A stretch of DNA of 30,575 nt from Gemmatimonadota bacterium. Lineage in GTDB: Bacteria > GCA-2686955. Below the pieces are notes generated by a model. That model ran no database searches, was not told where the DNA came from, and was given only the letters and a program-made list of their open reading frames with translations. The DNA lies in the NCBI GenBank assembly GCA_002686955.1, contig NYZA01000024.1:1-30575 (forward strand). Direction: 5' to 3'. Shown here one piece after another: positions 484 to 30,575 of the stretch. Made by a program: the position numbers and the translations under genes. The number at the start of each line of letters is the position of its first letter. Positions within the stretch are counted from its first letter, which is position 1.

Positions 484-487
484 ACAC

Positions 488-518: not shown

Positions 519-587
519 GGGGGGCGTGTGGGAGGGCCGCGCCGTGCCCTGCGCTGCGGTGTGGAAGCGATGCCCGAGGTCTAGCGG

Positions 588-1358: not shown

Positions 1359-1362
1359 GTCG

Positions 1363-2400: not shown

Positions 2401-2401
2401 G

Positions 2402-3655: not shown

Positions 3656-3688
3656 AGCGAAGGCTATCGCGTAGGAGGTTGCCGAGGA

Positions 3689-6021: not shown

Positions 6022-6023
6022 GC

Positions 6024-7046: not shown

Positions 7047-7086
7047 GGTGCTTTCTCACGCGACCAACTGCCGTGGAGATCGATCG

Positions 7087-14602: not shown

Positions 14603-15468
14603 CTCGAATCGTCTCGCGAGCTCGTGGATTCCCGCCGAAAGATAGCCAGCTCTGCGTCGAGACGCTCCGCGAGACTACGCGTCAATAGACCTGGACACTC
14701 TTCTCCCACGGCCTCCCCCTCGATCGAAGCAACCCCCACGATTCCGATCCCCACGGAGGTGATGAATACCTCATCGGCGGCTTGGACCCGGTCGAGCATA
14801 TGACGCACTTCCCGAAAACCGGTCCCCGCGTCATCCGCTTCACGAATCACGAAGCGACGCATTACACCTGGAAGCGCGCCCAGGTCGAGCGATGGCGTCC
14901 GTAGCTCCCCCCCCGACGCCCAAAATATGTTGCTATGAGCACCCTCGACCACAAAGCCCACCGGGTCGAGCATCAGAGCCTCGTGCGCCCCGCGGGCCAG
15001 GGCAGCGCGATGAGCGAGGACCAGCGGCTGAAACGAGATCGACTTCAGCGCGGGGTCCGATGACGCGGCTCGAACGACGGAGCTGACGACCACGCGCGCT
15101 CGCCCCCCCGCCGGCGGTTTCGAGACCGCCCGCAGATGGACCACCATCGTCGGCCCGTGCGGCGCCGCGCTCCCATCCGCCGCGGCGAGCTCTCCCCGGC
15201 TGATCGTCACACGGGCCATGCATTCAGGTCGCTTCTCCCGCGACGCCAGCTCGCCGACGATCTCATCCAGCCCGCCAATCGGCGCCGGCTCCGGGATTCC
15301 GACAGCCGCGAGCGAGGCGCGGAGCCGCTCGAGGTGTGCATCGATCCGGAAAACACGCCCGCCCGCGACACGCATCGTCTCAAAGAGGCCGTCGCCGTGC
15401 TGAAAGCCCACATCCAACGCCGAGATCTTCGGCTCTTCCGTGAAAACACCGTCGACGAAAGCGATCAA
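14599..15468 (-). CDS. pabC: Aminodeoxychorismate lyase / class IV PLP aminotransferase
   Basis: The 289-residue protein is a fold-type IV PLP enzyme. It begins MIAFVDGVFTEEPKISALDV with GFQHGDGLFETMRV after it, the classic N-terminal signature. The Schiff-base lysine is Lys142 in DPALKSISFQPLVLAHR. VVEGAHSNIFW (Glu175) and GALPGVMRRFV give the cofactor-binding strand and phosphate-binding loop. Together with pabB in the same operon this supports aminodeoxychorismate lyase, which releases pyruvate and p-aminobenzoate. A branched-chain or D-amino-acid aminotransferase cannot be excluded from motifs alone. The start overlaps the protease stop by 4 nt and its stop overlaps the HDAC fragment start by 4 nt. 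Confidence 0.88.
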   Translation of the reverse strand: MIAFVDGVFTEEPKISALDVGFQHGDGLFETMRVAGGRVFRIDAHLERLRASLAAVGIPEPAPIGGLDEIVGELASREKRPECMARVTISRGELAAADGSAAPHGPTMVVHLRAVSKPPAGGRARVVVSSVVRAASSDPALKSISFQPLVLAHRAALARGAHEALMLDPVGFVVEGAHSNIFWASGGELRTPSLDLGALPGVMRRFVIREADDAGTGFREVRHMLDRVQAADEVFITSVGIGIVGVASIEGEAVGEECPGLLTRSLAERLDAELAIFRRESTSSRDDSR

Positions 15469-18035
15469 GGCCGCAGCTCCAGTACCATGCCCGCCGCGTC
15501 GAATGCGCCCCCACCAGCCACGATTTCGACGGCGACCCCGTGCAGTCCCGGCGCCATCGGAGGAATCCCACGCGTGATCGAAACCGATCGACTCTCACCC
15601 TCCGCCAGCGTGCCGAAGGGGAGCTCCAGGTGGGGCACACCGTCGAGCACGATCCGCAGCCTCGCGTCGATCGTCGAGCCGGAGCGGTTCGTCGCTGAAA
15701 CTGTTGCCTCGACCGAATCGCCTGGGCGCGCGCCGAGCACCGCGCTCGGCTCCAGGTCGACATCGAGTACCGGCACCAACCCGCCATGCAGCACCAGATC
15801 ATCGATCCACCATCCCTCCCCCGCGAGACTTCCGTCGGAGCCGAGATGCCACCGCAGTCGGATCTTCTCGCCCTCGAACTCCCCGAGTGGCACCACCACT
15901 CGTCGCCAATCGATCGCGCCGGTCCAGCCGGGTTCGCCACGCAGTGCCCCATTGCCGTTCGGGAATGAGGCGTGGGGATAACCCCCCGAAGGAACAACAA
16001 CACTCCAGCTCGTATCATCCTCGACCGAGACACCCAGATTGCCCCCGTCGAAGCCGTCCTCGGCGGCCATCTGGTGGAAGAAGCTCACCTCCGCGCCGGC
16101 GCCTTCCACGAGAAGGGGCGGCGAGATCAGGCTCGCGTCGGCATCGTTGGGATAGCCGCCCAGCAAGGGTGCCCCCCAGACCGCGGGAGCGCTGTTCGAC
16201 GAGGGACCGACACCGTGCGCCCACACTCCACCCTGCACCTCCATGCCTCCATCCACCTGATCGAAATCTTGGGACGGCGATAGCACCAGCGCGACCGAAA
16301 CGGTGTCTCCACCCTGTACGACGAGCGATTCGGGCGCGGAGCCACGGAGCACGCCTCGTGCCTGAATTACGATCATCGAGTCCTGCGGCAGTCCCCCGAC
16401 TTCGAAGCTCCCGTCCGAAAGCACGGAACCATGAGCCATTTCGGGAACAAAGCGGAGCAACCCAGCCGTGTCTCTCCCCTCTTCGTCCGCCAGAGTTCCC
16501 TCGATACCCCCAACAGGTAGCACGACCGGTTCGAGGTCGAGATCGGTGATCCCCCCGGGCGCTACACTTGCCCACGCCGTATCAGCTCCCAAACCCCACG
16601 CACTCGCGATAATCATATGCTCCTCACCCCCGGGCAGCGGCAACGAATAACTCTGATCCGCCTCGTCCACCAATACCTCAAACCCAAGATCGGCCGCCTC
16701 GACGCGCACACTGCGCGCCAAAGCCCAATCGCCCCGAGGAAGATGAACACTCCCAAAGACGTGTCCGATCAATTCATTGCGAACATCGATCGCTCCTCGC
16801 GCATCGATCCGTCCCCAGCCGAACTCCTCGTCCCGTCCCGGCGCACCAAGGTCCGTCGCGCCCGACGCAAGAGAAAGCAACAGATCGTCGCGCACCGGCA
16901 AGAACGGACTCGCCGACGCAACCAAGCCGGCAGCCCCCGCCACCAAGGGCGCCGCGAAAGATGTTCCGCTGACGTTGTCGTATCCGCCCCCTTTGTCGGT
17001 CGTCCAGATCTCATCTGCCGGCGCGGCGAGCTCGATCTCTGCGCCGCGGGCCGAGCTCGACCAAAGCAGATCGTCGCGCGTGGTCCCCGAAACGGCGACG
17101 GCATCGGGCAGCGACGCCGGATACCCCACCTCGCCCCCCGTATTCCCGGCAGCCGCGACCAGCAACACACCGGCCCGCCGAGCCTCCGCGACCGCCTCGT
17201 CGATCGCCTGCGACGGCGACACCCGAAGCGACATCGTAATGATGTCGGCACCCATGTCGATCGCGTAGATGATTGCGTCGTCCAACACCTCCGACAGGGG
17301 TTGATTCTCGCCGATCTGCAGCGCCATCAATCGAACACCGCCCTCACCGCCCCATCCCCCCGCGATTCCCGCGACCCCTTCGCCGTTCGAACCGCGCGCC
17401 ACGATCGTCCCGGCCACCAGTGTTCCATGGTCCGACAGCGTGGGCCGTGGATCGTTGTTGTCGTTGGCGAAATCCCATCCCCAGAGATCGTCGATGAAAC
17501 CGTTCTGATCGTCGTCGATCCCGTTCTCGATCTCGTCGCTGTTCCGCCATGCCGACCCGACCAGATCGATGTGCTCGAGCTCTACGCCGGAATCGAGCGC
17601 GGCGATCACGACCCCGGAATCCCCCTTCGAGATCCGCCACGCGTCGCGAGCCCCTATGTCCGCGCCCGGCGTGCCGCCCTCCTGTCCCGTGTTCTCGAGA
17701 TGCCACTGATCCTCGAACATAGGATCGTCCGGCAGCGGGGGATCGGTGTCTGAAATCAGCCACTCTCCGGCCCTCGCGACCTCGGCCCAAGCGACTTGGG
17801 GGTCGAGCGCGAAACGCCGGGCAGCTTCCGGCGCAGGCAGTTCGCCAGTGTGGACATCGACGATGCCGAGACGATTAACCCGCGCCACATCGAAACCGTG
17901 TCGTCTGGCGATCGAGAGCGCGTCGGTCGCCCGCCCAGATGCCGCTCGAAACGAAAGTGTTTCGCTTCGATCAGCAAACGCAGCTACCCCGATACCAACA
18001 CCCGCGGCGCACAGAAGAGGGATGACAAAAGGCAC
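15465..18035 (-). CDS. Secreted subtilisin-like (S8) serine protease with C-terminal beta-sandwich domains
   Basis: The 856-residue protein begins with a hydrophobic export signal (PFVIPLLCAAGVGIGVAAFA) and a propeptide-like stretch. The S8 domain has all catalytic residues: Asp148 in VVIAALDSGVELEHIDL, His203 in SDHGTLVAGTI, the oxyanion Asn298 in VAAAGNTGG, and Ser359 in NVSGTSFAAPLVAG. An acidic insert NGIDDDQNGFIDDLWGWDFA lies between Asp and His and looks like a calcium site. The C-terminal half has carboxypeptidase-regulatory-like strands, then an immune-inhibitor-A/MAM-like domain (EVSFFHQMAAEDGFDGGN ... GEGWWIDDLVLHGG). A final strand domain follows. No sorting tail is obvious. The GTG start overlaps the transglutaminase stop as TAGTG. 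It probably acts outside the cytoplasm on an unknown protein. Confidence 0.92.
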   Translation of the reverse strand: MPFVIPLLCAAGVGIGVAAFADRSETLSFRAASGRATDALSIARRHGFDVARVNRLGIVDVHTGELPAPEAARRFALDPQVAWAEVARAGEWLISDTDPPLPDDPMFEDQWHLENTGQEGGTPGADIGARDAWRISKGDSGVVIAALDSGVELEHIDLVGSAWRNSDEIENGIDDDQNGFIDDLWGWDFANDNNDPRPTLSDHGTLVAGTIVARGSNGEGVAGIAGGWGGEGGVRLMALQIGENQPLSEVLDDAIIYAIDMGADIITMSLRVSPSQAIDEAVAEARRAGVLLVAAAGNTGGEVGYPASLPDAVAVSGTTRDDLLWSSSARGAEIELAAPADEIWTTDKGGGYDNVSGTSFAAPLVAGAAGLVASASPFLPVRDDLLLSLASGATDLGAPGRDEEFGWGRIDARGAIDVRNELIGHVFGSVHLPRGDWALARSVRVEAADLGFEVLVDEADQSYSLPLPGGEEHMIIASAWGLGADTAWASVAPGGITDLDLEPVVLPVGGIEGTLADEEGRDTAGLLRFVPEMAHGSVLSDGSFEVGGLPQDSMIVIQARGVLRGSAPESLVVQGGDTVSVALVLSPSQDFDQVDGGMEVQGGVWAHGVGPSSNSAPAVWGAPLLGGYPNDADASLISPPLLVEGAGAEVSFFHQMAAEDGFDGGNLGVSVEDDTSWSVVVPSGGYPHASFPNGNGALRGEPGWTGAIDWRRVVVPLGEFEGEKIRLRWHLGSDGSLAGEGWWIDDLVLHGGLVPVLDVDLEPSAVLGARPGDSVEATVSATNRSGSTIDARLRIVLDGVPHLELPFGTLAEGESRSVSITRGIPPMAPGLHGVAVEIVAGGGAFDAAGMVLELRP

Positions 18036-20044
18036 TACGCCCGCCCCAGCTCGATCGTCGAAATCATCGCATCGAACAGCTCGACGTCGCCATCCGCCGG
18101 ATTCTCGAGTGTGAACATGAAATAGGTGTCGCCATCCAAGAAGATCAGCGATACTCGGCGCAATCCGTCGACCGGATCCTTGAACTCCAGCCGCAACGCG
18201 CTCGTGTGCCCAATCCGCGTCGCGCGCCGCGATTCGAAGCCACCTACATACCGAGAGATCTCATTCTCCGCCCCGCCCAGACTAAAATCGTAACCAACGA
18301 CAATCGCCTTGACCGCAAGGGCCGCTAGATGGCTCGGTTCGGGCGGATAGAACATTTGCAAATAGTCGGCGGGTAGCTCACGAGGCTCGGTAGGTCGCCA
18401 CAAGGGAGGCGTCTTGAAAGCGATTCGGTGCTCCGGACTGCGCACCGATGCTCCATCGATCTCGAGCGCCGGACGGGCGCCGGTGAAACGAGACCCCCGC
18501 GACATATATTCCACGACTTCGAGATCGATCCGCCCCATCACGTCGAGCAGCGGAACGAAACTGCTGCCGGTCGCCCCACCGGCCATCGTATCCGCGGCGA
18601 TCTTCACGTGGGTCGCGTCGACCGAATCGAGCCCGAAAGCGGGATCCAGCGGAAACCACACACCCGTGAACACTTCGGTCCACATGTGATAGCCGAAGGC
18701 GCCGCGAAAATAGATCAGCCCGCTGACCGCGCGCGCCGGAATCCCTACCGATCGGCAGAGAGCGGTCAACAGAAGCGCATGCTCGGTGCAATCCCCTTCT
18801 CGCCGCCTGAGCGCCTCGAGCGCCGAAGCGAAACCAACACTGAATCCCTTCTTGCTCATCGAACGAAACACCCATTGATTCAGACCGCGCGCCGCCGCCA
18901 GAGGATCGCGCTCCGCCCCGATCAGCTCCGCGGCAATCCGCCGCAGCTCTTCGTCCCCCGACTGAATCAATAGCGAAGGCGCCAACTCGTCGGCCCACTC
19001 CCCTCCCGCGTAAGGCAACTCATAACTCGCAGCCGGCTCCTCGGGACGCCGAATCCGAAGCCTCAAGGCAGGATTCGAATCGGAGGGATGCGTGCCCAAG
19101 GGCGCGTCTCCACCCACCGACGCCGCCACTTCTCGCTCCTCGACGACGATCTGGTGGGGCGGCCAGCTCAACCGCGCCCTGAGAGCTCGCGTCTCCCCCC
19201 GCGGCTCCACCCGCAGCAAGAGTTCATCCACGGTCCGCGGCCGGGGAATCCGTCGCTTCGACTCGACCAAAGTTTCGAAGATCAGGTCGAGAGTGTAGTC
19301 GAGTGGCGGGCTCTTCGCCTTTGCTCGATTCGAAAGAACCGTCTCTTGCTTGATCCCCATCAGCTCCGCATGAGAACGCACCACACTTCCGGTCGAAATG
19401 TCGCGCCATTCATCGGTTGTCATATTCGTCAAGCCCGAAATCGTCGTTCGCGTGTGCAGTGCACGAATCGTCGCATCCCGCGCTTCGACATCTTCGACCC
19501 CGAGCAGCTCGACATCGAAAGTCTGAATCGCCGCCATCTCGGGAAGAAAAGAGCGATATCGCACCACGGGCGCCTCCGCCGCGAACGCACCGGCCAGTAA
19601 CCGATCCGCCGTCCAGGGAAAAACGAGGGCGGTATCGCCAATAAAGATCGCCCGCCGCGAGGCCGACTCGAGCCCCTTCGAAACAAGGATCAGAGAATCG
19701 CCCTCGACCACGGCATTCGTGCGTGTCGAATTCGCCGCCACCGACTCGACATACTCGACCGAAACCGGTCGCCCCGCCCGCGTCTCGACGAAACGCGCCG
19801 TGCTCGCCATCTTCACCTGCTCGCCCACCCGCCGAACCCGCATTTCTGTGTCGAGTGTCACCGCAACCCGATCGTCCCCGGTCGCCTCCACGTCGACATG
19901 AAGAAACCCGACCTTCTTCGTATCCATGAGCAGCTCGTGCCACTCCTCACGCGGCGGCTCCTGCGGCGGCCAAGCCTCGAACGAGATCGCGGGGGAACCG
20001 TGAAGCAGGGCAAGGGTGCAGAAAAGGTGGGCAATGGGACGCAT
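18035..20044 (-). CDS. Secreted transglutaminase-like cysteine protease/peptidase-fold protein
   Basis: The product is 669 residues from ATG 20044, with a signal peptide MRPIAHLFCTLALLHGSPAI. A long beta-rich N-terminal part is followed by a transglutaminase-like core. The catalytic triad is visible as Cys419 in RREGDCTEHALLLTALCRS, His453 in GYHMWTEVF and Asp467 in WFPLDPAFGLD, with GIPARAVSGLIYF between Cys and His. Bacterial members often act as peptidases or amidases on cell-surface proteins rather than cross-linking. The frame is open back to 20230, but the extra 62 residues precede the signal peptide and look non-coding; the ribosome site before 20044 is weak, so the start is moderately sure. 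It is first in the five-gene operon and directly coupled to the S8 protease, which suggests joint action outside the cytoplasm. Confidence 0.87.
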   Translation of the reverse strand: MRPIAHLFCTLALLHGSPAISFEAWPPQEPPREEWHELLMDTKKVGFLHVDVEATGDDRVAVTLDTEMRVRRVGEQVKMASTARFVETRAGRPVSVEYVESVAANSTRTNAVVEGDSLILVSKGLESASRRAIFIGDTALVFPWTADRLLAGAFAAEAPVVRYRSFLPEMAAIQTFDVELLGVEDVEARDATIRALHTRTTISGLTNMTTDEWRDISTGSVVRSHAELMGIKQETVLSNRAKAKSPPLDYTLDLIFETLVESKRRIPRPRTVDELLLRVEPRGETRALRARLSWPPHQIVVEEREVAASVGGDAPLGTHPSDSNPALRLRIRRPEEPAASYELPYAGGEWADELAPSLLIQSGDEELRRIAAELIGAERDPLAAARGLNQWVFRSMSKKGFSVGFASALEALRRREGDCTEHALLLTALCRSVGIPARAVSGLIYFRGAFGYHMWTEVFTGVWFPLDPAFGLDSVDATHVKIAADTMAGGATGSSFVPLLDVMGRIDLEVVEYMSRGSRFTGARPALEIDGASVRSPEHRIAFKTPPLWRPTEPRELPADYLQMFYPPEPSHLAALAVKAIVVGYDFSLGGAENEISRYVGGFESRRATRIGHTSALRLEFKDPVDGLRRVSLIFLDGDTYFMFTLENPADGDVELFDAMISTIELGRA

Positions 20045-20347
20045 GGCAATTCGGGGATCGGGTGGAAACTCTGACGAAATCCGATCTTCCCCCAGGTAGG
20101 GATCGCGGCACCAGCGTAAATCGGGCGGCATCTTCGCTGCGGGTCCCCGGAACATCCGATATTGAGGCGATATGCGGCCTCCGATCGTCGACCGCCGAAT
20201 CGACGCCGGCTCCAGTGGCTGCGCGACCAAATCCGGCCGGGCAGCCGGTGCTTTTGAACACGTGCTCCGCTACAGGTAGCCGCAAGCTCATACTGCATGC
20301 CAGAATCGCGGGTCCTCTCGCCACATCGACGGAAGGCAGATTTCCCG
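20045..20347. other. Divergent intergenic region
   Basis: About 300 bp lie between the starts of the transglutaminase-like gene (minus) and the small outer-membrane-like gene (plus). The minus frame stays open to 20230 but shows no family-like sequence. I see no clear promoter pair, hairpin or RNA gene; promoters for both directions must be here. Confidence 0.5.
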
Positions 20348-21040
20348 ATGCAATCGAAGCGATGTCGAGCACTGCGCCGGCGCGGCGCTCTCTTGATCCT
20401 CGCACTCTGCGCAACCGCGGCGGCCGCTCCGGCCGACGGCAATGACGATCCACGGCGGCGGCCACGCGGGCCGGAGGAAACGCGCGAACCCGCTCCCCCA
20501 CCCCGCTTTCGGGTGCTGATCGATGCGGGCCTCGGGGCCGCCACGACGACCGGATCGTGGTTCGAGTCCTACACCAGCGGCCTCAGTTGGCAGCTGGGTG
20601 CTCGGCTCGCGGGCAACCGCAACACCACGATGGGCTTGCGCTATCGACGACAACACCTCGGACTCGCCCTGAGCTCCGCCGGATCCGGCTCGGACCGGAT
20701 CGAAGAGTACTTCTTCATCCTCGGCCTCACCGCCGCCCCGCGATCGAAGCGAGCGCCCCAGATCAACGCACACTTCGGAATCGGCGCGATCCACAGTGTG
20801 CTGGTCGGATTGTCCGATCCCGGAGATCCTCCGACCTTACCCGCCATCGTCTCCCAAGAGGACCGTCTCGCGCTGCGCACCGGCGCCGGCCTGATCCTCC
20901 CTTTGAGCGAGCACTTCGGATTCGAGATCGAGAGCAATCTGCGCATCACCGGCCGAGGGGCCACCGACCCTCTCGACCCGAGCTCGAGCGCGACCGGCGC
21001 GCTCTTCGGCATCGCTCTTCGGGTGGTTTGGATGCTCTGA
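20348..21040 (+). CDS. Uncharacterised exported protein, probable small outer-membrane beta-barrel
   Basis: The 230-residue product starts with a basic region and a hydrophobic signal segment (RRRGALLILALCATAAAAPADG), followed by a proline/arginine-rich linker. The mature part alternates hydrophobic and polar residues in short strands: FRVLIDAGLGAATTTGSW, LSWQLGARLAGNRNTTMGLR, EYFFILGLTAAP, INAHFGIGAIHSVLVGL, LALRTGAGLILPLSEHFGF and ALFGIALRVVWML. It ends in an aromatic/hydrophobic strand as outer-membrane barrels do. No family is recognised. ATG 20348 is preferred over 20297 because it starts the signal peptide cleanly. It is a single gene, convergent with the SUMF1-domain gene 25 bp away. 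The barrel call is inference from the strand pattern. Confidence 0.72.
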   Translation: MQSKRCRALRRRGALLILALCATAAAAPADGNDDPRRRPRGPEETREPAPPPRFRVLIDAGLGAATTTGSWFESYTSGLSWQLGARLAGNRNTTMGLRYRRQHLGLALSSAGSGSDRIEEYFFILGLTAAPRSKRAPQINAHFGIGAIHSVLVGLSDPGDPPTLPAIVSQEDRLALRTGAGLILPLSEHFGFEIESNLRITGRGATDPLDPSSSATGALFGIALRVVWML

Positions 21041-21065
21041 ACCGCCCCCGAAGGCGATTCTCCGA

Positions 21066-21977
21066 CTAGGGATCCGACCGAACGACGCGGAAGCCAAGGA
21101 AGGACTCGGAGCTGTCGGGCTGCGAGATGAAACGGTTTCCCGAGCGACAATTCCTGGCGATGGTGGCGAAGCTGCCCCCGCGGACCACTTTGGCCGCGCC
21201 AAAGGCAGGACCGAGAGGGTCGATGACTGGGCCAAGTGGGTAGTTCCCGAACCAATCCCAACACCACTCCTGCACATTTCCGCTGTTGTCGTAGAGTCCC
21301 CACGCATTTGGATCCTTCTGTGCCACATCCTTCGTACCGTTCGGCGCGTTGTTTCCGCAGTACCAGCCGATCAGATCCATATTAGGGTCGTTGCAGCTCA
21401 CGTCGGTGATATCGCCATTGTAGAAAGCGGTCGAAGTGCCTGCTCGGCACGCGTACTCCCACTCCGATTCCGTCGGTAGGCGATAGCCGTTCGTATCAGT
21501 CAACCAGGTTACTCCGGTCGTGTCGACGTCGTAGACCGGATCGAGTCCATCCAACAAAGACGCGGCGTTGCAGTAATCCACGGCGTCGTACCAGTTCACA
21601 CGCTCCACCGGGCAGTCGTCGCAGTCGGCGAAGGCGCTCGGATTGGTCCCCATGACCGCGAACCACTCGGACTGAGTCACCGGGGTCGTCGCCATCAAGA
21701 AGTCTTGCGAGATCGTAACGGTGTGCTCGGCCTCGCTTGCATATCGCCCGAGCTCATCGGGCGGTGTTCCCATCGTAAAGGTCCCCGCTGGAATCCAGAC
21801 CATGCCCTCGGGCGCCGGAAGTTGCGCCAGCATCAGATCAGTGCTGATAGGTACGGCGCGCCGAACGTCGCGTAGCTTCCGTGCGACTCGGGCATTGGGC
21901 TCGGACAGCGCGGCCGAAACCCAGCCGAGCGCGAGCGCCAAGGCGACAATGCGCATACTCGTTCCGCGAACACTCAT
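21066..21977 (-). CDS. Exported SUMF1/formylglycine-generating-enzyme-domain protein
   Basis: The 303-residue protein has a signal peptide (MRIVALALALGWVSAALSEP) and one SUMF1 domain. The family marks are MVWIPAGTFTMGTPPDE, ISQDFLMATTPVTQSEWFAV, CPVERVNWYDAVDYCNAAS, GYRLPTESEWEYACRAGT, GLYDNSGNVQEWCWDW and a terminal VVRGGSF ... FLGFRVVR. The C-terminal region has one cysteine (NCRSGNRF) rather than the close Cys pair used by true formylglycine-generating enzymes. A binding or structural role is therefore more likely than sulfatase activation, and no sulfatase is nearby. ATG 21977 has GGAG 6 nt upstream; ATG 21989 is 4 codons earlier. Extra cysteines (CDDCP) may form disulfides in the periplasm. 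Confidence 0.9.
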   Translation of the reverse strand: MSVRGTSMRIVALALALGWVSAALSEPNARVARKLRDVRRAVPISTDLMLAQLPAPEGMVWIPAGTFTMGTPPDELGRYASEAEHTVTISQDFLMATTPVTQSEWFAVMGTNPSAFADCDDCPVERVNWYDAVDYCNAASLLDGLDPVYDVDTTGVTWLTDTNGYRLPTESEWEYACRAGTSTAFYNGDITDVSCNDPNMDLIGWYCGNNAPNGTKDVAQKDPNAWGLYDNSGNVQEWCWDWFGNYPLGPVIDPLGPAFGAAKVVRGGSFATIARNCRSGNRFISQPDSSESFLGFRVVRSDP

Positions 21978-22125
21978 TTCGATCTCCATCTCTTTTTTCT
22001 ATTTCTTCGCTTCGCACTGTGGAGCGTCCCCGTCGCCTCACACGACAGCCCGCGCCACACACATCCGAACCATCAACGCCAAACCCAAGGATAACCGCTC
22101 GCGGGCAGCGATGTCGGCCAGGCCC

Positions 22126-22367
22126 TCAGGAGGTCGCGAAGAGGATATGCCTCAACCCGACAGCGACATCAGGGGAGGATCGCATGAGCCGAACAGTCTC
22201 TTCCCGGCTCGCCATGCAGAGCTCGGTGTCGGTAAGCGCCTCCGCGGCGCATTGATGGTCATTCCGCAGGAAAGCCCGGAGATGACCTCTTCGGGCACGC
22301 CCGCGAGCACCCCTTCGCTTCTCATCACGCAATCATCGCAACGGCGTACGTCCACTGTGGCGGTCAT
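22126..22367 (-). pseudogene. Crp/Fnr-family regulator remnant (internal deletion plus frameshift)
   Basis: Two overlapping minus-strand frames each carry a different piece of a Crp/Fnr protein. From ATG 22367 one frame reads VDVRRCDDCVMRSEGVLAGV then PEEVISGLS, the Fnr-type N-terminus 'C-x-x-C ... R ... lFagl.eE...L'. In the other frame, ending at 22126, AAEALTDTELCMASREETVR then LMRSSPDVAVGLRHIL matches the end of the cyclic-nucleotide-type barrel and start of the dimer helix ('AlTdtElc.i.re...ll...P.va..l..ll'). The roughly 80-residue barrel between them and the C-terminal DNA-binding helix-turn-helix are missing. The junction is near 22250-22280. It is not functional. Matching was by eye and is not exhaustive. 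Confidence 0.65.
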
Positions 22368-22579
22368 TTGGATTGTCCGACGTCGTCGGTTCCTTCGCGG
22401 GCGTTCAGCCGAGGCTGCTGCGCCGGCGGTTCTATCGCGACAGGTAGACGCTCACCGCCTCGCGCATCAAAGGATGCCGTGCATTGCTCCTCCCCGCAGC
22501 GCGCTGCGCATTCTATTCGAGGAGTAGATTGACGTATTCTCGTGCCACACAAGCAATGTCGAGTAACCGCGAGGCAAAT

Positions 22580-23140
22580 ATGGCGACCGATCAAGAGATT
22601 CTGGAGATCTGGCCTGAGCTGGGCTGGATCGAAAACGAAGGTCTGCGAGAAAAGACACTGGCGACGTGGAGGCTCGCATTCGAGCGCAGTCCGCTCGGTC
22701 CGCAAGATCTACTGGAGATCCCCTTCACCTTGCATGTGGAGGATTGCGAAGTGAGCTTCATGGCGCACAAACAGCTGGTGGTGCACATCGCGCTTCAGTG
22801 CGCCGAGAAGATCGGGCAGTTCATGCGCGAAGCGATGCCGCTCGACCGCGATACGCTGATCGCCGGAGCGATTCTGGCCGACGTCGGCAAACTGCTCGAA
22901 TACGAGAAGATCGAAGGCCAGGTGAGGCAGTCGCGGCGCGGTCAGTATCTGCGTCATCCCTTCACCGGCGTGGGGCTGGCCCAGGAGTGCGATGTTCCTC
23001 CCGAGGTCTGCCACATCATCGCGACCCATGCCGGCGAGGGGAATCTGGTGAAGCGGAGCCCCGAGGCCTATGTGGTCCACCATGCCGACTTCATGACATA
23101 TGAGCCGCTCGTGAAGGGGCTCGTTTTCGCCGACGAGTGA
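22580..23140 (+). CDS. HD-domain family protein with the HD histidine replaced
   Basis: The 186-residue protein has the helical HD-phosphohydrolase layout: IPFTLHVEDCEVSFMAHKQL, VVHIALQCAEKIG, LIAGAILADVGKLLEYEKIE, RRGQYLRHPFTGVGLA, CHIIATHAGEGNLVKRSPEA and VVHHADF. Most putative metal ligands (His63/69, His126, His145/150, Asp170) are present. However, the motif that gives the family its name reads Ala100-Asp101 (LADVGK) instead of His-Asp, so catalysis is doubtful or uses another ligand. ATG 22580 is chosen because GCGAGG lies just upstream; ATG 22556 lacks a ribosome site and the longer frame from 22484 looks non-coding. The stop overlaps the next gene's GTG start (GTGA), so the two are coupled. 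Substrate unknown. Confidence 0.82.
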   Translation: MATDQEILEIWPELGWIENEGLREKTLATWRLAFERSPLGPQDLLEIPFTLHVEDCEVSFMAHKQLVVHIALQCAEKIGQFMREAMPLDRDTLIAGAILADVGKLLEYEKIEGQVRQSRRGQYLRHPFTGVGLAQECDVPPEVCHIIATHAGEGNLVKRSPEAYVVHHADFMTYEPLVKGLVFADE

Positions 23141-24561
23141 CGCTTCCGATACCAGCGACCTGGAAGGGGATCGGCTGGCTGAGGGATATTGTGGTGCACG
23201 GCGGCCGTGCCTGGGCAGTGGGCGGGGCGGTGCGTGATCTGCTTCTGGCTCTGCCGGCCCGTGATCTCGATGTGGTCGTCGGAGGAATGCCCCGCGCAAT
23301 GCTCCGAGAGATCTTGTTGCGTCACGGCGCGGTGGACGAGGTCGGCGCGGATTTCGCGGTCTTCAAATGGCGGGAACGGGAAGGGGGGACCGCGGTCGAC
23401 GTGGCGCTGCCCCGAAAAGAGCGCTCTACCGGGCCGGGCCATCGGGACTACGAGGTTCAGGGGGAGCCGGATCTTGCCATCGAAGAGGATCTGGCTCGGC
23501 GCGATTTCACGATCAACGCGATCGCCGTGGAGCTGCCCTCGGGGGATCTTGTCGATCCGCTCGGCGGACGGCACGATCTGGAAGAGGGGCTCTTGCGCGC
23601 GGCCGGGGTGCCGCTGGAGCGTTTTCGCGAGGATCCCCTGCGAGTCCTGCGAGGAGCCGGTTTCGTCGCCCGTTTCGAGCTCGTGGTGGACGAAGCGACG
23701 CGCGCCGCGATGACCGAGGCGGCTCCGCTGCTCGAGACCGTCGCGGCGGAGCGGATGGCGAGCGAGCTGATCAAGCTGCTCTCGTGCTCGATGCGCCCAT
23801 CCCTGGGGCTGCGTTTGCTCTTCGATGTGGGCGCGATGCGGTGGCTGGTGCCGGAGCTCATGGCGGGGGTCGGCTTCGACCAGAAGAGCCCGCACCACCA
23901 TCTGCCGGTGGACGAGCACACACTGCTGACCGTCGACGAGGCGGCGGCACGCAGCGACGATATCGTCGTGCGGATGGCGGCTCTGCTCCACGACGTGGCG
24001 AAGCCGAGCTCTTTCAGCGAGTATCCGAACCGCGAAGGACGGGTGGTCGGCCACTTCCACGGCCATGAGAGAGAGGGCGCGCGGATGGCGAGACGGGCGA
24101 TGTCGCGCCTGCGCATCTCATCCGCCCCGGGATTCCCGCGAGGCGGTGTCGGCGAGGTGCTGGCGCTCGTTCGGCACCACCTGGTCTACCTGCGCGCCGA
24201 CGCTTCGGATCGTGCACTGCGCCGCTTTCTGACACGGGTGGGCAGTCTGAAGAGAATGCGGCGCCTGCTCCTGCTGCATCGGGCCGATCGCGCCGCGCAC
24301 GCCGGCGGTGAAGAGGATGCCGCCATCGACCTGCTCGAAGCCCGCATCGAAGAGCTGGCGCACGATATGCCGCTGTCGCCGCACGACTTGGCTCTGCGAG
24401 GCGGGGAGCTGGTGAGCCTGCTCGGTCTGCGCGGTCCGACGGTGGGCCTCGCCCAGCGATGGCTCATGGGAGAGGTGATTGACGGGCGGCTGCCGAACGA
24501 CCGGAGGAGCTTGCTGAAGGCGGCGAAGAGGTGGGCGGCGGGGGATGCCGGAAGCTGGTGA
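23137..24561 (+). CDS. cca: CCA tRNA nucleotidyltransferase / poly(A) polymerase family protein with HD domain
   Basis: The 474-residue class II nucleotidyltransferase adds CCA to tRNA 3' ends or A tails to RNA. The head domain has WAVGGAVRDLLLALPARDLD, with GG-x-x-RD at 29-34 and the metal-binding DLD at 43-45. Next come DLARRDFTINAIA and the base-recognition region RFREDPLRVLRGAGFVARF. A C-terminal HD domain follows, with LLHDVAKPSSF (His285-Asp286) and GHFHGHEREGARMARRAM. Which of the two activities applies cannot be settled by motif reading. The GTG start overlaps the HD-protein stop. Its last 98 bp overlap the convergent cytochrome gene. Confidence 0.9.
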   Translation: MTLPIPATWKGIGWLRDIVVHGGRAWAVGGAVRDLLLALPARDLDVVVGGMPRAMLREILLRHGAVDEVGADFAVFKWREREGGTAVDVALPRKERSTGPGHRDYEVQGEPDLAIEEDLARRDFTINAIAVELPSGDLVDPLGGRHDLEEGLLRAAGVPLERFREDPLRVLRGAGFVARFELVVDEATRAAMTEAAPLLETVAAERMASELIKLLSCSMRPSLGLRLLFDVGAMRWLVPELMAGVGFDQKSPHHHLPVDEHTLLTVDEAAARSDDIVVRMAALLHDVAKPSSFSEYPNREGRVVGHFHGHEREGARMARRAMSRLRISSAPGFPRGGVGEVLALVRHHLVYLRADASDRALRRFLTRVGSLKRMRRLLLLHRADRAAHAGGEEDAAIDLLEARIEELAHDMPLSPHDLALRGGELVSLLGLRGPTVGLAQRWLMGEVIDGRLPNDRRSLLKAAKRWAAGDAGSW

Positions 24562-26836
24562 TCGACGACCGGTCCCCACCGACCGTACCGGTGGCGGTGG
24601 AGCGCAGATGGTCCAGCCACTGTCGCCTTGCGGGATCGTCTCCGAACAGGTCCTCGAGAATGAGAAGCGCGGCGTCGGAGCGACCCTCGCCGTAGAGCAC
24701 TTGCGCATCCGCCAGCCGAATCCGGCCTTCGAGTGAGAGCTTTTTGACGATCAGATAGTCGTTGAAATCCGGCTTCTTGGTGTAGCCCTCGAGGGCACCA
24801 TCATCCGCGCCTTCGAGCTTCGCCAACCACTTCCGCGCGGCGCGCTCGGCGATCGCCGGGTCATCGGTGAGCTCGACGCTCGCCGATGCGGTGTCGAGCT
24901 CCACGACCGGTGCATCGATCTGTGGAATGAGCTCGGCCTCGGCGGCAAAATCGAGGATCGCCTGGTTGAATTTCCTGAATCGGAGCCGGACGGCGATCCG
25001 GAAGGGACCTACGGCATCGTGACCGGCCGGATCCACGGAGAAGGGGAGCTCGTCGAAGTACTTGGCCGGAACGACATGCAGTCGGTCTTCGGCGAAGAGC
25101 CAGCTTCGGTGCCGGTCGAGCTCCAGAGCACGCCCCTTTTGATCGTGCGGCGCCACCGTATAGACGTGAGTCGAGTCGCGATCGAGGTGCCCGTCGCGGT
25201 CCAAGAGCCCGTAGGTGAGGAGCCTCTCGCCCGAGCCGGCGGTGACGATCACCTCGATCCACGATTCGATCAAGTCGGCCGCCGGGCCGGCGGGAAAGAT
25301 GTGGCCCACGCCCTTGTTGATGACGCGCACGACGAACTCCAGCTCGTCGCCGAGTCGGATCGCTTCGGGCGCCACCACATCGAGCACCATGTGGCCGTCT
25401 TTCATGAACTCGCGCGTGAGACGTTCCTGCTCCTCGAGGCCGTAGAGGATTGGGGTGACCACGTTTGACCCAAGCGTGCGGTGGTTGGCGATCGTCCCCT
25501 TCTCGTAGGCGGAGACGTCGTTGCTCGTCTCCACTTGTGCCATATGACAGTCCTGGCACTCCTTCCTCTCCTCTCCGGCGGGAGGGTGGTTGTAGGGGCT
25601 CGCCGCCCAGTAGGCGTACTGGAGCCGGCGATGGCAGCCGACGCAGTGCTCCGAGGTCTCGAAAAGCGGCGTCCGGAACATCGCCTTGTGGTGCTCGGGC
25701 TTGTTGTTGATCAGGGTCTTGTTTAGCCAACGGCCGATAGGATGGTCGGAGAAGGCGAAGAGATAGCGGTTCGGCGGTGGCGCAATCGAGTAGTCGCCCC
25801 CTCCCCCACTCCCCACATCGCCCGTCGAAACGATCCGGTGGCAGAGAATGCAGGAGTCCCCCTCCCACCTCTCGAAGTTCGCCACGCCCGCGCCTCGGGT
25901 GACCTCTCCCGCGAAAAGCGCGACTGGAGTATGGCATCCGGCGCAGTATCGGTAGCTCTCGCGCCCTACATGGGATTCGCGCTCCTCGCCGCTTCGGTGC
26001 GCATAGCGGTTGCCGAGGAATTCGCCTCGCCGGGCGTCTTCCATGAAGACCGACTGGACGGCGTCGAAAGCCGGCGTCGTAGTGCGATAATGTGCCGACT
26101 CTTTGAATTGGTTGAGGGTCTCGACGTGGCAGCCGGAGATGCCGCAGCTTTCCGAGCGAAGAAAATGTACGGGTTCGTAGAATCCACCGGATGCGGTCTG
26201 AGCGCGGCTCGGGTAGAAAGGGTCGTCACCGAAGGGGTAGCTGTACCCTCCGACGATCCGGTCCACCGGAGGCTCTTCATAGAGGGTGGAGAAGGCGGCG
26301 CTGACCGCCACGAGCACCACGGCGCCGACGCCGACCCTGGCGCCGATCCTCCACAAACTCTGTCGCAGATACGCCTGCGCACTTGGCTTTGTGTCCAGCT
26401 CTCCCATCCAGAGTCGAACCGTCACGAAGGCGTAGAGAGCCATTGCCGCGACCCCGTAGAGCGAGATCACCGTGTGGGAAAGCCAGAGCCAACGGATCCC
26501 CGTGATCCCCCTGAAGGTCAGCCAGGCTCCTGAGATGAATGCGAATACCAGCGACAGTACACAGCTCCAGCCGAACCATGCGTAACCCGGCCGATCGACG
26601 ATCGAGACGTAGCGGCGGTGCCTGCGCCAGAACATGATGCAGGGAAGAACGAAAGGGAAGCCCGCCAAGATATGGAAGAGGAGCAGCGTCATGTCGAGGT
26701 GGGTCAGCTCGTCGATGAAGAGCAAGTAGAGCCCCACCAACGACTCGACGATCGTGAACGCCAACCCCAACCAGAAGTACTTCGATTCCCAATTCTCGCC
26801 CCGCTCGATCCGCACAGCTCCTCGCACGAATTCCAT
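24464..26836 (-). CDS. Membrane-anchored pentahaem c-type cytochrome (copy A)
   Basis: The 790-residue protein has an N-terminal domain of about five hydrophobic helices (near 20-41, 48-70, 86-108, 117-141, 165-187). Its histidines LLLFHILAGF (His55) and LSHTVISLYG (His121) could bind b-haem. An extracytoplasmic domain follows with five covalent haem sites: CGISGCH at 231-237 (a CX4CH variant), CAGCH 298-302, CILCH 329-333, CVGCH 398-402 and CQDCH 427-431. Conserved possible distal ligands include HH382/383, NHRTLG and GVGHIFPAG. The C-terminal part is beta-rich then helical. The layout suggests electron transfer between the quinone pool and periplasmic partners; substrate unknown. The last ~50 residues (PPPPTSSPPSASSSG) differ from copy B and are antisense to the end of cca, so the native 3' end seems lost. 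Divergent from the lipoprotein gene. Confidence 0.88.
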   Translation of the reverse strand: MEFVRGAVRIERGENWESKYFWLGLAFTIVESLVGLYLLFIDELTHLDMTLLLFHILAGFPFVLPCIMFWRRHRRYVSIVDRPGYAWFGWSCVLSLVFAFISGAWLTFRGITGIRWLWLSHTVISLYGVAAMALYAFVTVRLWMGELDTKPSAQAYLRQSLWRIGARVGVGAVVLVAVSAAFSTLYEEPPVDRIVGGYSYPFGDDPFYPSRAQTASGGFYEPVHFLRSESCGISGCHVETLNQFKESAHYRTTTPAFDAVQSVFMEDARRGEFLGNRYAHRSGEERESHVGRESYRYCAGCHTPVALFAGEVTRGAGVANFERWEGDSCILCHRIVSTGDVGSGGGGDYSIAPPPNRYLFAFSDHPIGRWLNKTLINNKPEHHKAMFRTPLFETSEHCVGCHRRLQYAYWAASPYNHPPAGEERKECQDCHMAQVETSNDVSAYEKGTIANHRTLGSNVVTPILYGLEEQERLTREFMKDGHMVLDVVAPEAIRLGDELEFVVRVINKGVGHIFPAGPAADLIESWIEVIVTAGSGERLLTYGLLDRDGHLDRDSTHVYTVAPHDQKGRALELDRHRSWLFAEDRLHVVPAKYFDELPFSVDPAGHDAVGPFRIAVRLRFRKFNQAILDFAAEAELIPQIDAPVVELDTASASVELTDDPAIAERAARKWLAKLEGADDGALEGYTKKPDFNDYLIVKKLSLEGRIRLADAQVLYGEGRSDAALLILEDLFGDDPARRQWLDHLRSTATGTVGGDRSSITSFRHPPPPTSSPPSASSSGRSAAARQSPLP

Positions 26837-26896
26837 GGGACCTGACTTCCAGCTTCCAAGCCACTACTCGCTTCGATCTACGGCGGTAGGGTTCCA

Positions 26897-26925
26897 ATAC
26901 TAGGTGTACTCGAACTTGGTCGCAA
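26897..26925 (-). promoter_or_regulatory. Probable sigma70-type promoter of cytochrome copy A
   Basis: On the minus strand TTGCGA (26925-26920) and TAGTAT (26902-26897) are 17 bases apart, each matching four of six consensus bases. A start of transcription near 26890 would give a leader of about 54 nt before the ATG at 26836. It lies in the 171-bp divergent region shared with the lipoprotein gene. Confidence 0.4.
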
Positions 26926-27007
26926 CCGCACGAGGGTCCCCAGGATCCGCCGCCCGGCTCCATGCTACGGTCGGCCGGAGATCTTCCAATCGGAAAGGGC
27001 GATCGCG

Positions 27008-27508
27008 ATGCGCACTCCGACAAGAGGCCGGTTTTGTAGCTTTGGGGCGGCGTTGCTCATCGGATGCGGAAGCGAGAAGGGGGCGTCGATCGATGCGGAT
27101 CAGAGCTCTTCCACCGGAGGCGAAGAAGATGGTGCCGTGTCATCGGAGCACCGGAACGCGGACGCACCGAGCCCGGCATTCGGCGCTGCACTCTTCATCA
27201 GAGCCTTCGCCTCTTACCTGGAGCTGACGGGCGGCGAGATCATCGATCGTGATCTGCTCGAGGCGGCGATCGAGGAGGACGATTACGAAGGAAAGGCGTT
27301 CGCCGGCGCGCTCGACCTCCTCAATCAACGCTTGGAGGAGCGGGGGGAACGCCCGATTCCGCGACCCTTGCCGGAAGGTCTCGGATTGAGCTCCCGCATC
27401 GAAGCGAGACCTCCTTCGGCCCACGAGGATCGGTGGCGTAAGATGGGCTCCACACGAGCGGTAGCAGCGCCAAGAATCGCAGATGACACCAAGACCGAAC
27501 CGAAATAG
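27008..27508 (+). CDS. Uncharacterised lipoprotein
   Basis: The 166-residue product has a lipoprotein signal with lipobox LIGC (Cys20) after a basic/hydrophobic start (RGRFCSFGAALLIGC). A Ser/Glu-rich linker follows, then one helical region (AALFIRAFASYLELTGGEII and DRDLLEAAIEEDDYEGKAFA) and a polar tail. No family is recognised. GGAAAGGGCG just upstream is a good ribosome site for ATG 27008. It is first in a three-gene + strand set between two cytochrome genes and overlaps the next gene by 26 nt, so it is probably cotranscribed with the EF-hand proteins. A role as an assembly or docking partner of the cytochromes is inferred only from position. Confidence 0.72.
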   Translation: MRTPTRGRFCSFGAALLIGCGSEKGASIDADQSSSTGGEEDGAVSSEHRNADAPSPAFGAALFIRAFASYLELTGGEIIDRDLLEAAIEEDDYEGKAFAGALDLLNQRLEERGERPIPRPLPEGLGLSSRIEARPPSAHEDRWRKMGSTRAVAAPRIADDTKTEPK

Positions 27509-28085
27509 AACACGCGTACTGGCCGGAGCGACGTTGGTGTCGTGGGTGGCTTTGCTGGTTTTCGTTCTGTCGCCCGGGGGACCGGCGGGCATGGAGTGGG
27601 GGTTTCTCGGGGGCGATGGACCGGTGGATGGCGAGTCAGGGCTGCCTCCTCTCATTCTGGGCCTGGACCGAGACGGGGATGAGCGCATCTCTCGCGACGA
27701 ATTCCATATCTTCGAGCGCCTCGATCGCGACGGGGATTTCTTCCTCGACACCGCGGAGGCCCGCGCCGAAAACCGGGTCTCGCTCCGGGAACCGGCTCGC
27801 GGCGGAAGCCAGGGTGGAGAGCAGATCCGGCCACTCCCCGCGCACGACCGCGACGGAGATATGCGGGTCTCTCCCAGTGAGTTCCCGGGTTCGCGTCGGC
27901 TTTTCGATCGACTGGACAAGGATGGCGATGGCTTTCTCGATCTCGGAGGAGGAGCTCCGGGGAGCGCGTTGCGCGGCAAAAGGCTCGGGACCAGAGACCG
28001 GTCGCGGCGGTGGGGGATGGAAGACCTACTGGAATTCGTCCCAAGCAGCGATGAGCCGGTCGACGACAAGCCGGAGTCGCAATGA
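27483..28085 (+). CDS. Membrane-anchored protein with four EF-hand loops (copy 1)
   Basis: The 200-residue protein has one N-terminal membrane or signal-anchor helix (VLAGATLVSWVALLVFVLSP). It then has four canonical calcium loops: DRDGDERISRDE (62-73), DRDGDFFLDTAE (81-92), DRDGDMRVSPSE (122-133) and DKDGDGFLDLGG (145-156). The first three keep Asp at 1, 3 and 5 and Glu at 12; the fourth ends in Gly and may be weak. Loops 1-2 and 3-4 form two pairs, as in calmodulin-like folds. The protein would place a calcium-binding domain on the outer face of the membrane. It lies between two cytochrome genes and resembles the next gene closely around its first loop pair (LDRDGD.R.S..EFH.F.R.DR.GD.F.D..EA). 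Confidence 0.85.
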   Translation: MTPRPNRNRTRVLAGATLVSWVALLVFVLSPGGPAGMEWGFLGGDGPVDGESGLPPLILGLDRDGDERISRDEFHIFERLDRDGDFFLDTAEARAENRVSLREPARGGSQGGEQIRPLPAHDRDGDMRVSPSEFPGSRRLFDRLDKDGDGFLDLGGGAPGSALRGKRLGTRDRSRRWGMEDLLEFVPSSDEPVDDKPESQ

Positions 28086-28098
28086 GCGATCTCGATCG

Positions 28099-28452
28099 AT
28101 GAAAGCGAATCGAAGGGCAAGGAAGAAAGCGAGACGGAAGCGGGTCGATACCGCCATCTCGCGCATTCTGGTCGTCATGGCCGGCATCGCCGGATTGGCG
28201 CTGGCGGTATTCATCGTGAAACAGGGAGAGCTGGGCAGACTGCTGGCCAGACGCGCCGTACGCTCAGAGAGCGCCGAGGGTGAAACGCCATTCCTGATAC
28301 AGGGACTGGATCGAGACGGAGACCAGCGCGTTTCGTGGAGGGAGTTTCACGTATTCGATCGCATCGACCGGAATGGGGACGGCTTCGTGGACGCCGACGA
28401 AGCGAGCGCGCGAACGCAGGCGAAACGCCCGCGCCGACGCGGAGACCAATAG
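28099..28452 (+). CDS. Membrane-anchored protein with one EF-hand pair (copy 2, short)
   Basis: The 117-residue protein has a strongly basic N-terminus (KANRRARKKARRKR), one membrane helix (ISRILVVMAGIAGLALAVFI) and an EF-hand pair: DRDGDQRVSWRE (71-82) and DRNGDGFVDADE (90-101). The basic start predicts the N-terminus inside and the calcium domain outside. It corresponds to the anchor plus the first loop pair of the preceding gene and is probably its paralogue. The frame is open further upstream, but that stretch is a shadow of the preceding gene; ATG 28099 begins the basic segment, though no strong ribosome site is visible. It ends 39 nt from the convergent end of cytochrome copy B. Confidence 0.8.
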   Translation: MKANRRARKKARRKRVDTAISRILVVMAGIAGLALAVFIVKQGELGRLLARRAVRSESAEGETPFLIQGLDRDGDQRVSWREFHVFDRIDRNGDGFVDADEASARTQAKRPRRRGDQ

Positions 28453-28491
28453 GACCTCGGCCGAGTCCCAAATCCGAATCGGTTCGATCGA

Positions 28492-30575
28492 TCAGCCGGA
28501 ATCACCGCCGCCGAAGGGATCGACCACGTCGCCGACCGGCTGCTCTCGCCTCTCTTGCACCGCTTCGACGAGGGCGCTGCGAAGGCGTGCCAACCACATC
28601 CGTTCTTGCACGTCGCGATCCGAAAGCTCGTCGAGAATCGCCAACGCGGACTCGTAACGCCCTTTTGCGTACAGGGCCTGCGCGTCCACGAGTCGAATGC
28701 GGCTCTCGAGAGAGAGCTTTGTCGCGAGAAGGTGGTCATCGAAATTCGGCTTCTTCGTGTAGGCCGCGAGATCGATGTCATCCGACCCGTCGAGCTTGGC
28801 CAACCACTCTCCCGCGGCCCGCTCGGCGACAACCGGATCGTCGGTGAATTCGACATTCGCCGAAACAACATCGAGCTCCACGACCGGCGCTTCCAGTCTC
28901 GGCGCGAATCCGGCTTCGGCGGCGAAATCGAGGAACGCCTGATTGAACTTCCGGAATCGAAGTCGGGCGTCGATCTTGATCGGACCGATGACATCACTTT
29001 CCGCGAGATCGACCGCAAAGGGGAATTCGTCGTAGTACTTGGCCGGCACGACGTGCAGTTTGTCTTCGCTGAACATCCAGTTGCGGTGCCGGTCGAGCTC
29101 CAGTGCGCGACCATCCTGATCGTGCGGCATGACCGTATAGACATAGGTCGAGTCGTGATCCAGGTGGCCGTTTTCGTCCAGCAGCCCGTAGCTGAGAAGC
29201 TGCTCTCCAGAGCCGTCCGTGACGGTCACCTCGGTCCAGGATTCGATCAGATCGGCCTCTGGGCCGGCGGGGAAGATATGTCCCACCCCTTTGTTGATGA
29301 CGCGAACGATGAACTCCAGCCTATCGTGCGGCTGGATCTCGGCGGGCGCTACCACGTCGAGCACCATATTGTCGTTCTTCATGAACTCGCGCGTGAGGCG
29401 ATCCTGCTCCTCGAGGCCGTAGAGCATCGGTGTGACCAGATTGGCCGCGAGCGTACGGTGGTCGGAGATCGTCCCCTTTTCAAGTGCCGAAACATCGTTG
29501 TGTGTCGCCACCTGCGGCATATGGCAGTCCTGACACTCCTTCGTCTCTTCACCGGGTGGCGGATGGTTGTACGGGCTCGCCTCCCAGTACGAGAATTGGA
29601 GCCGCTTGTGACAGCCGACACAATATTCCGATGTTTCGTAGAAGGGCGTATCGAACATCGCCATATGGTGCTCGGGCTTGTTGTTGATCAGCGTCTTATT
29701 GAGCCAACGCCCGACTGGATGGTCCGAGAACGCGAAAAGGTAACGGTTCGGCGGTGGGGCGACGGAATAATCGCCTCCACCTCCGCCGACCACATCACCC
29801 ATGGAAGCGATCCGGTGGCAGAGAATGCAGGAATCCCCTTCCCATTCTTCGAAGCTGGGCAGCCCCGCGCCCCTGTCGATTTCGCCCGCGATCAGCGCCA
29901 CCGGAGTGTGGCAGCCGGCGCAGAAGCGAAAGCTCTCGCGCCCCTCGTGGATGTCCCGCATCTCGTCGATCTGGAGGCTGCCACGGGAACCGAGAAACTG
30001 GCCTTGGCGGGCCTCCTCCATGAAGAGCGACTGAACGGCCCCGAAGATCGGCGTCGGCGTGCGGTAGTGGACCGAATCCTTGAATTGGACCAGAGTTTCG
30101 ACATGACAACCCGAGATGCCGCAGGTCTCCGAACGGAGAAAATGGACCGGTTCGTAGAACCCGCCCGAGGCGGTTTGCACCCGGCTCGGGTAGAAGGGGT
30201 CGTCGCCGAAGGAATAGCTGTATCCTTCGACGACCCGGTCCACCGGCGGCTCTTCGTAGAATGCGGCGTAGGCGATATTCGCCGCCACTAGAACGACACT
30301 TCCCACGGCGACCTTCGCGCCGATCTTCCACAAGGTCCGACCCAGGAAAGCCTGCGCTTTCGGCTTGCCGACCATCTCGCCCATCCACAGCTTCACCGTC
30401 AGGAAGATATAGAGGCCAAGCGCGGCGAAACCGTAGAGCGAGATCACCGTGTGGGACAGCCAGAGCCAGTAGATCCCGGAAATGCCCCTAAAGGTCAGCC
30501 AGATCCCGGAGATGAGCGCGAAGAGCATCGATACGACGCAGCTCCAGCCCAGCCAGTTATAGCCCGAGCGCTCCA
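28492..30575 (-). CDS. Membrane-anchored pentahaem c-type cytochrome (copy B, N-terminus outside window)
   Basis: This is a close paralogue of copy A, alignable almost without gaps from the visible start (ERSGYNWLGWSCVVSMLFAL) to near the C-terminus. About the first 80 residues lie beyond the window. It keeps the later membrane helices with LSHTVISLYGFAALGLYIFL. All five haem sites are in the same order: CGISGCH (CX4CH), CAGCH, CILCH, CVGCH and CQDCH. GVGHIFPAG and the helical C-terminus are also kept. Unlike copy A it ends in an ordinary polar tail (QERREQPVGDVVDPFGGGDSG) with its own stop at 28492, and probably shows the ancestral 3' end. The two copies are in the same orientation, separated by the lipoprotein/EF-hand genes. 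Confidence 0.9.
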   Translation of the reverse strand, partial: ERSGYNWLGWSCVVSMLFALISGIWLTFRGISGIYWLWLSHTVISLYGFAALGLYIFLTVKLWMGEMVGKPKAQAFLGRTLWKIGAKVAVGSVVLVAANIAYAAFYEEPPVDRVVEGYSYSFGDDPFYPSRVQTASGGFYEPVHFLRSETCGISGCHVETLVQFKDSVHYRTPTPIFGAVQSLFMEEARQGQFLGSRGSLQIDEMRDIHEGRESFRFCAGCHTPVALIAGEIDRGAGLPSFEEWEGDSCILCHRIASMGDVVGGGGGDYSVAPPPNRYLFAFSDHPVGRWLNKTLINNKPEHHMAMFDTPFYETSEYCVGCHKRLQFSYWEASPYNHPPPGEETKECQDCHMPQVATHNDVSALEKGTISDHRTLAANLVTPMLYGLEEQDRLTREFMKNDNMVLDVVAPAEIQPHDRLEFIVRVINKGVGHIFPAGPEADLIESWTEVTVTDGSGEQLLSYGLLDENGHLDHDSTYVYTVMPHDQDGRALELDRHRNWMFSEDKLHVVPAKYYDEFPFAVDLAESDVIGPIKIDARLRFRKFNQAFLDFAAEAGFAPRLEAPVVELDVVSANVEFTDDPVVAERAAGEWLAKLDGSDDIDLAAYTKKPNFDDHLLATKLSLESRIRLVDAQALYAKGRYESALAILDELSDRDVQERMWLARLRSALVEAVQERREQPVGDVVDPFGGGDSG
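28540..30575 (-). repeat. Diverged direct repeat of the cytochrome gene (partner about 24600-26600)
   Basis: The two cytochrome genes form a long direct repeat at protein level and, with many third-position changes, at DNA level. The stretches coding for the CCACCGCCGAACCG... segment and for the GVGHIFPAG region are near-identical in both copies. Accumulated synonymous differences indicate an old duplication rather than a recent one. Limits are approximate. Confidence 0.7.

Follow-up and report, generated by a model that had tools for sequence, protein, structure and literature searches.

Membrane pentahaem cytochromes of a broadly distributed family and their lineage-specific EF-hand neighbours in a Gemmatimonadota bacterium

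Introduction

In CbcL, MtrH and MtoC, a di-haem b membrane domain and a periplasmic multihaem c part are joined in a single polypeptide (PMC9129911, PMC6295460), and CbcL homologues have been implicated in both directions of electron flow (PMC6295460). ImcH likewise combines N-terminal transmembrane helices with a C-terminal multihaem part (PMC6295460). Members of the PHC family, namely cytochrome c552 of Thermochromatium tepidum (5ZE8), ExtKL, Gsu2801 and the sPHC and lPHC proteins of cable bacteria, carry a pentahaem domain followed by an Ig-like domain (PMC11976967). Here we analysed a 30,575-nucleotide stretch from a Gemmatimonadota bacterium, hereafter the window, which is the entire contig C24 (NYZA01000024.1) of a draft genome (84.5% complete, 270 contigs). 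At 24464-30575 it encodes two membrane pentahaem cytochromes, cytA and cytB, with a lipoprotein gene and two EF-hand protein genes between them.

The pentahaem and Ig-like domains of cytA are collinear with those of the PHC family. Whereas the PHC members drawn in PMC11976967 have signal peptides, cytA instead has a b-type domain of five transmembrane helices, plus a helical tail; cytA and cytB are a membrane variant sharing the PHC domain, not typical PHC members. Against the ExtKL equivalog model (NF040886, cut-off 250 bits) cytA scores 20.6 bits, and partial matches to that model occur in 47 of 52 aligned family members. Relative to CbcL the order is reversed: CbcL has nine N-terminal c haems and six C-terminal helices, whereas cytA has five N-terminal helices, then five c haems and the Ig-like domain, a likeness of described architecture rather than of compared sequences. 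With three helices and seven CX2CH motifs, ImcH differs from cytA, which has five helices with b-haem-type histidines and five c haems. Finally, FG-GAP proteins of the CRTAC1 family lie beside hydrazine-synthase (HZS) homologues (PMC12758564), the same adjacency to a multihaem protein as at most loci of the present family, although the cytochrome there is a different one (an HZS alpha homologue) and the window itself holds no FG-GAP protein.

Results

The gene order at the locus is cytochrome, lipoprotein, EF-hand protein, EF-hand protein, cytochrome, with the cytochromes on the minus strand and the middle three genes on the plus strand. cytA (24464-26836, minus strand) encodes 790 residues comprising an N-terminal five-helix b-type domain, a pentahaem domain, an Ig-like domain and a helical C-terminal part. 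The five predicted helices span residues 21-39, 46-80, 85-109, 116-146 and 151-185 (membrane domain 26282-26776, minus strand). The second cytochrome, cytB (28492-30575, minus strand), is 72% identical to cytA. Its 693 residues are open at the contig end, which cuts the gene and removes about the first 80 residues, and none of the genome's other contigs supplies the start. Each cytochrome contains five haem motifs: a CX4CH (CGISGCH) comes first and four CXXCH follow. In cytA they lie at 26126-26146, 25931-25945 (CAGCH), 25838-25852 (CILCH), 25631-25645 (CVGCH) and 25544-25558 (CQDCH), and in cytB at 30103-30123, 29908-29922, 29815-29829, 29608-29622 and 29521-29535, all on the minus strand. 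The window contains nine CXXCH matches where chance alone would give 1.08, and eight of them are in frame within cytA and cytB.

All five c-haem motifs are invariant across the 52 family members, as are C231, C236 and H237 of motif 1. Outside the motifs, periplasmic His249, His383, His452 and His512 are present in 52 of 52 sequences and His576 in 51; these five are candidates for the distal ligands of the five haems. Such a set would fit bis-His coordination of every c haem, with the pairing read from the conserved histidines. In the membrane domain, His55, His73, His121 and His135 are conserved in most family members, two per helix on two helices, forming the pairs His55/His121 and His73/His135. 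Residue 135 is His in 47 of the 52 sequences and Tyr in exactly the five members of one lineage described below (0 Tyr among the other 47). One of these five, the cytochrome on contig C167, additionally lacks His73. Pfam families DUF4405 and Ni_hydr_CYTB were matched by the membrane domain in 31 and 16 of 51 family members, respectively, which adds weight to a b-type membrane domain.

Structure prediction gave a cytA model with a predicted local distance difference test (pLDDT) score of 80.6 (52 sequences), showing five transmembrane helices, the haem domain, a beta domain near residues 481-660 and C-terminal helices. In a second-look structure alignment, residues 221-654 matched 5ZE8 with Z 19.2 over 332 residues (root-mean-square deviation 3.8), the next match having Z 10.4, and this agrees with the sequence profile (E 1.2e-8); cytochrome c552 was absent from the top of Foldseek's own ranking. 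The isolated membrane domain (pLDDT 90.8) matched hydrogenase-1 cytochrome b (Z 10.4), cytochrome b6f, superoxide oxidase and b561, while the sequence-profile search found no solved structure for it. We take this fold match as supportive only of a b-type domain. As modelled, the periplasmic part is a PHC fold (cytochrome c552/ExtKL) fused to a cytochrome-b-like membrane domain.

The distribution of the family was examined in two ways. Of 386 surveyed genomes, drawn mostly from separate families, 37 had a profile match at 1e-30. The membrane part is covered in about ten of these matches; soluble forms of about 460-500 residues make up many of the rest. A scan of genome contigs with the cytB sequence alone gave no match. 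An alignment scan of named genomes yielded 515 loci, of which the best 80 were examined, a sample biased by its choice on similarity to the alignment. These 80 loci belong to at least ten phyla, including Acidobacteriota, Planctomycetota, Gemmatimonadota, Verrucomicrobiota, Bacteroidota and Marinimicrobia. The window's phylum comprises two genomes only, and the other one (G001) had no match. At no fewer than 62 of the 80 loci (L071-L150), the next downstream gene encodes a CRTAC1-like FG-GAP/UnbV_ASPIC protein, often together with TPR. By motif alone, an FG-GAP-type open reading frame (ORF) directly follows on the same strand at 61 of 80, and among 62 downstream proteins scanned FG-GAP_3 was found in all 62 and UnbV_ASPIC in 55. 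UnbV_ASPIC matches number ten in the window's genome, none of them on the cytochrome contigs. By contrast, an ORF with at least two EF loops within about 6 kb occurs at only 4 of the 80 loci. These are the locus of bacterium UBA796 (L071), a related Planctomycetota pair (L094 and L102), both of which carry the FG-GAP gene alongside the EF-hand neighbour, and L148, where the EF-loop ORF is a 981-residue protein rather than a small EF-hand protein.

The family is widespread and apparently undescribed; its usual partner in most bacteria is a different protein, likewise bearing calcium-type loops, and the EF-hand pairing is lineage-specific. A literature search, with subscription journals outside its scope, found no description of an FG-GAP/UnbV pairing with this cytochrome family, and on UnbV or CRTAC1 with cytochromes only PMC12758564 and PMC3174227 surfaced. 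Neither the membrane b/PHC fusion nor the FG-GAP/UnbV pairing nor the EF-hand variant turned up in the literature searched, whereas the fold of the periplasmic part and the principle of CbcL were already known.

The EF-hand proteins of the window are both anchored by one transmembrane helix: EFlong (27483-28085, plus strand; 200 residues) and EFshort (28099-28452, plus strand; 117 residues). With a canonical loop defined as 12 residues, acidic at positions 1, 3, 5 and 12, EFlong has three canonical loops of four (DRDGDERISRDE, DRDGDFFLDTAE and DRDGDMRVSPSE, with a degenerate fourth, DKDGDGFLDLGG), and EFshort has two of two (DRDGDQRVSWRE and DRNGDGFVDADE). Pfam EF-hand_1 (PF00036) was above cut-off in both (E 2.5e-9 and 3.4e-6), and the two are paralogous (42% identity over 104 residues, E 3.6e-19). 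A lanmodulin-like type was considered on a weak NCBIfam match of EFlong (E 0.01) and rejected, the loops lacking Pro at position 2. The small lipoprotein upstream of them (27008-27508, plus strand; 166 residues, lipobox LLIGC) matched no family above cut-off in the Pfam scan. A substrate-binding role for it was dropped because it is unrelated to the NMT1-like lipoprotein encoded on contig C170. Codon usage favoured all three plus-strand genes over alternative frames.

An earlier note on this stretch, which had described two membrane pentahaem cytochromes flanking an opposite-strand lipoprotein and two paralogous anchored EF-hand proteins, was accurate in this, and the multi-helix, possibly b-haem-binding membrane domain that it saw joined to five c haems is supported by the conserved histidines, the DUF4405 and Ni_hydr_CYTB matches and the structural matches. 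Its proposal of a new module defined by EF-hands held in part, in that EF-hand genes recur at C170 and UBA796, whereas the family is mostly paired with FG-GAP/UnbV_ASPIC; as the defining partner the EF-hand proteins fell away, given a widespread family and EF-hands near so few of its loci. The finding that the note itself had named as refuting its proposal, a cytochrome family common in the absence of EF-hand neighbours, is thereby borne out.

Further copies of the cytochrome are present in the same genome, one at the end of contig C170 (54% identical) and one on C167 (39% identical). Beside the intact cytochrome of C167 lies a degenerate extra one (L008, 11600-12294), with membrane and Ig-like pieces kept and the haem part gone. 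In a quick-method tree of the 52 sequences, the four copies and that of UBA796 form one clade (SH-aLRT [Shimodaira-Hasegawa-like approximate likelihood-ratio test] support 100), within which cytA and cytB are sisters (99) and the C170 copy groups with UBA796 (94). In the large phylum of UBA796, 4 of 282 sampled genomes have the membrane cytochrome; the other three have His at 135, and an FG-GAP neighbour is clear in one. EF-hand genes are present at the cytochrome loci of C24, C170 (two anchored proteins, 3863-4192 and 4594-5301) and UBA796. The whole genome of 4.28 Mb has about five EF loci, two of which lie within 5 kb of three cytochrome loci (chance about 0.0005). The EF-hand link is therefore real but lineage-specific. 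Other EF-hand proteins, on C121, C108 and C151, adjoin sulfatase or SGNH genes, and EF matches also occur on C97, where the frame is a long transporter-like protein, and on C12.

That a cytochrome and EF-hand unit had been duplicated as a whole, as also suggested earlier, agrees with the local copies of both but not with their order, since simple tandem duplication of such a block would give an alternating order. EFlong of C24 resembles its C170 counterpart (36% over 171 residues, E 2.6e-21). The two short EF proteins, one on C24 and one on C170, align to different halves of the long one. A whole unit may have been duplicated, more plausibly between C24 and C170 than inside C24.

Elsewhere in the window, 1-12900 is a polysaccharide-type cluster (epimerase, methyltransferases, DUF3473 deacetylase and glycosyltransferases), and 15465-24561 encodes an S8 protease, a transglutaminase-core protein, an FGE-sulfatase-domain protein, an HD-domain protein and a poly(A) polymerase/CCA-type nucleotidyltransferase, whose gene shares 98 bases at the 3' end with cytA. 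Look-alike membrane proteins resembling a fused transporter/spermidine synthase lie near EF-hand genes on C170 (L007, 8011-10245; without a Pfam match) and C121 (L030, 2584-4839). A rare, distantly DltB-like MBOAT subfamily is encoded on C167 (L008, 6939-8249 and 14691-16058) and at the UBA796 locus (L071, 2949-4211), where one protein (2-1873) combines a sulfatase, an N-terminal lipoprotein signal and EF-hand loops.

Discussion

The architecture, the periplasmic fold, the breadth of the family, its usual FG-GAP partner, the lineage-specific Tyr and the recurrence of EF-hand genes are established computationally. On these grounds cytA and cytB probably carry out a CbcL-like electron exchange between quinone and periplasm, for which we infer the haem content, the electron direction, the quinone site, the binding of calcium and the role of the EF-hand proteins. 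The cytochromes would sit at the inner membrane, with a b-haem domain of four helices, an additional fifth helix, a periplasmic PHC-fold pentahaem c domain and an Ig-like cap, and electrons would pass between the quinone pool and some partner in the periplasm via a b haem and then the five c haems, as in CbcL. In this lineage the inner-side b haem would be short of one ligand (His135 to Tyr), so that electron transfer probably relies on a single b haem close to the periplasmic side. For the anchored EF-hand proteins, the most likely role is that of calcium-binding accessories in the envelope, specific to the cytochrome loci of this lineage; they may dock or stabilise the redox complex. Several points weigh against this proposal. 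Unrelated helical proteins (TRP channels) stand in the same match list as the b-type folds (Z about 10), the models are of protein without haems or Ca2+, and electrons may flow either way. In addition, the EF-hand genes lie on the strand opposite to the cytochromes, so that co-expression is not implied, and none was found at C167 in the 20 kb examined.

A possible, though less probable, explanation places the EF-hand proteins in a surface-modification system of Dlt-like acyl-transfer and sulfatase/SGNH type, with the cytochrome as its electron-transfer part or a mere sharer of the locus. Distant DltA/B/C homologues are found at C170, C167 and UBA796. At UBA796, genes for a DltB-like MBOAT, an acyl carrier protein (ACP), an AMP ligase and two further haem-motif proteins are co-directional with the cytochrome, while an EF-hand protein and an EF-hand/sulfatase protein lie opposite; on C170 the ligase and ACP genes stand among the two EF genes, the cytochrome and the NMT1-like lipoprotein gene, and on C167 two MBOAT genes and a sulfatase gene are near the cytochrome. 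The MBOAT subfamily occurred in 1 of 241 genomes across bacteria, with both copies at C167, and in 2 of 377 in another sample, and the genome's further EF proteins adjoin sulfatase or SGNH genes. Against this, the window contains no Dlt-like gene (DltA/B/C homologue), the best MBOAT reaches 42 bits where the DltB cut-off is 375, and one MBOAT of another genome (G584) had no cytochrome in the 13.6 kb examined.

It is also conceivable, though rather unlikely, that the family works by rule with an extracytoplasmic calcium-loop protein, mostly the FG-GAP/UnbV propeller and here the anchored EF-hands, with calcium controlling docking or electron exit and L094 and L102 as an intermediate state. We consider it improbable that the cytochrome is a catalytic reductase with an open haem site instead of a conduit, the EF-hand proteins being unrelated neighbours. 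The relatives ExtKL and MccSep are by name reductase-linked or selenoprotein forms, and fusions with other domains occur in some PHC relatives (PMC11976967), but the five conserved non-motif histidines match five haems and argue for bis-His ligation throughout, and EF recurrence at cytochrome loci is improbable by chance. A merely accidental EF-hand adjacency, with no joint function, would agree with the 4 of 80 loci and with C167 but is unlikely in view of the genome-wide chance value and of the EF-hand at UBA796, which comes from a different, larger phylum set.

If cytA, cytB and their relatives are quinone-linked, as is probable, the family would amount to a common electron-transfer unit, present in at least ten phyla, almost constantly partnered by FG-GAP/UnbV_ASPIC and without a description in the literature searched. 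In the present lineage, the loss of one b-haem ligand and the exchange of the partner make a natural variant that could help test the role of that partner.

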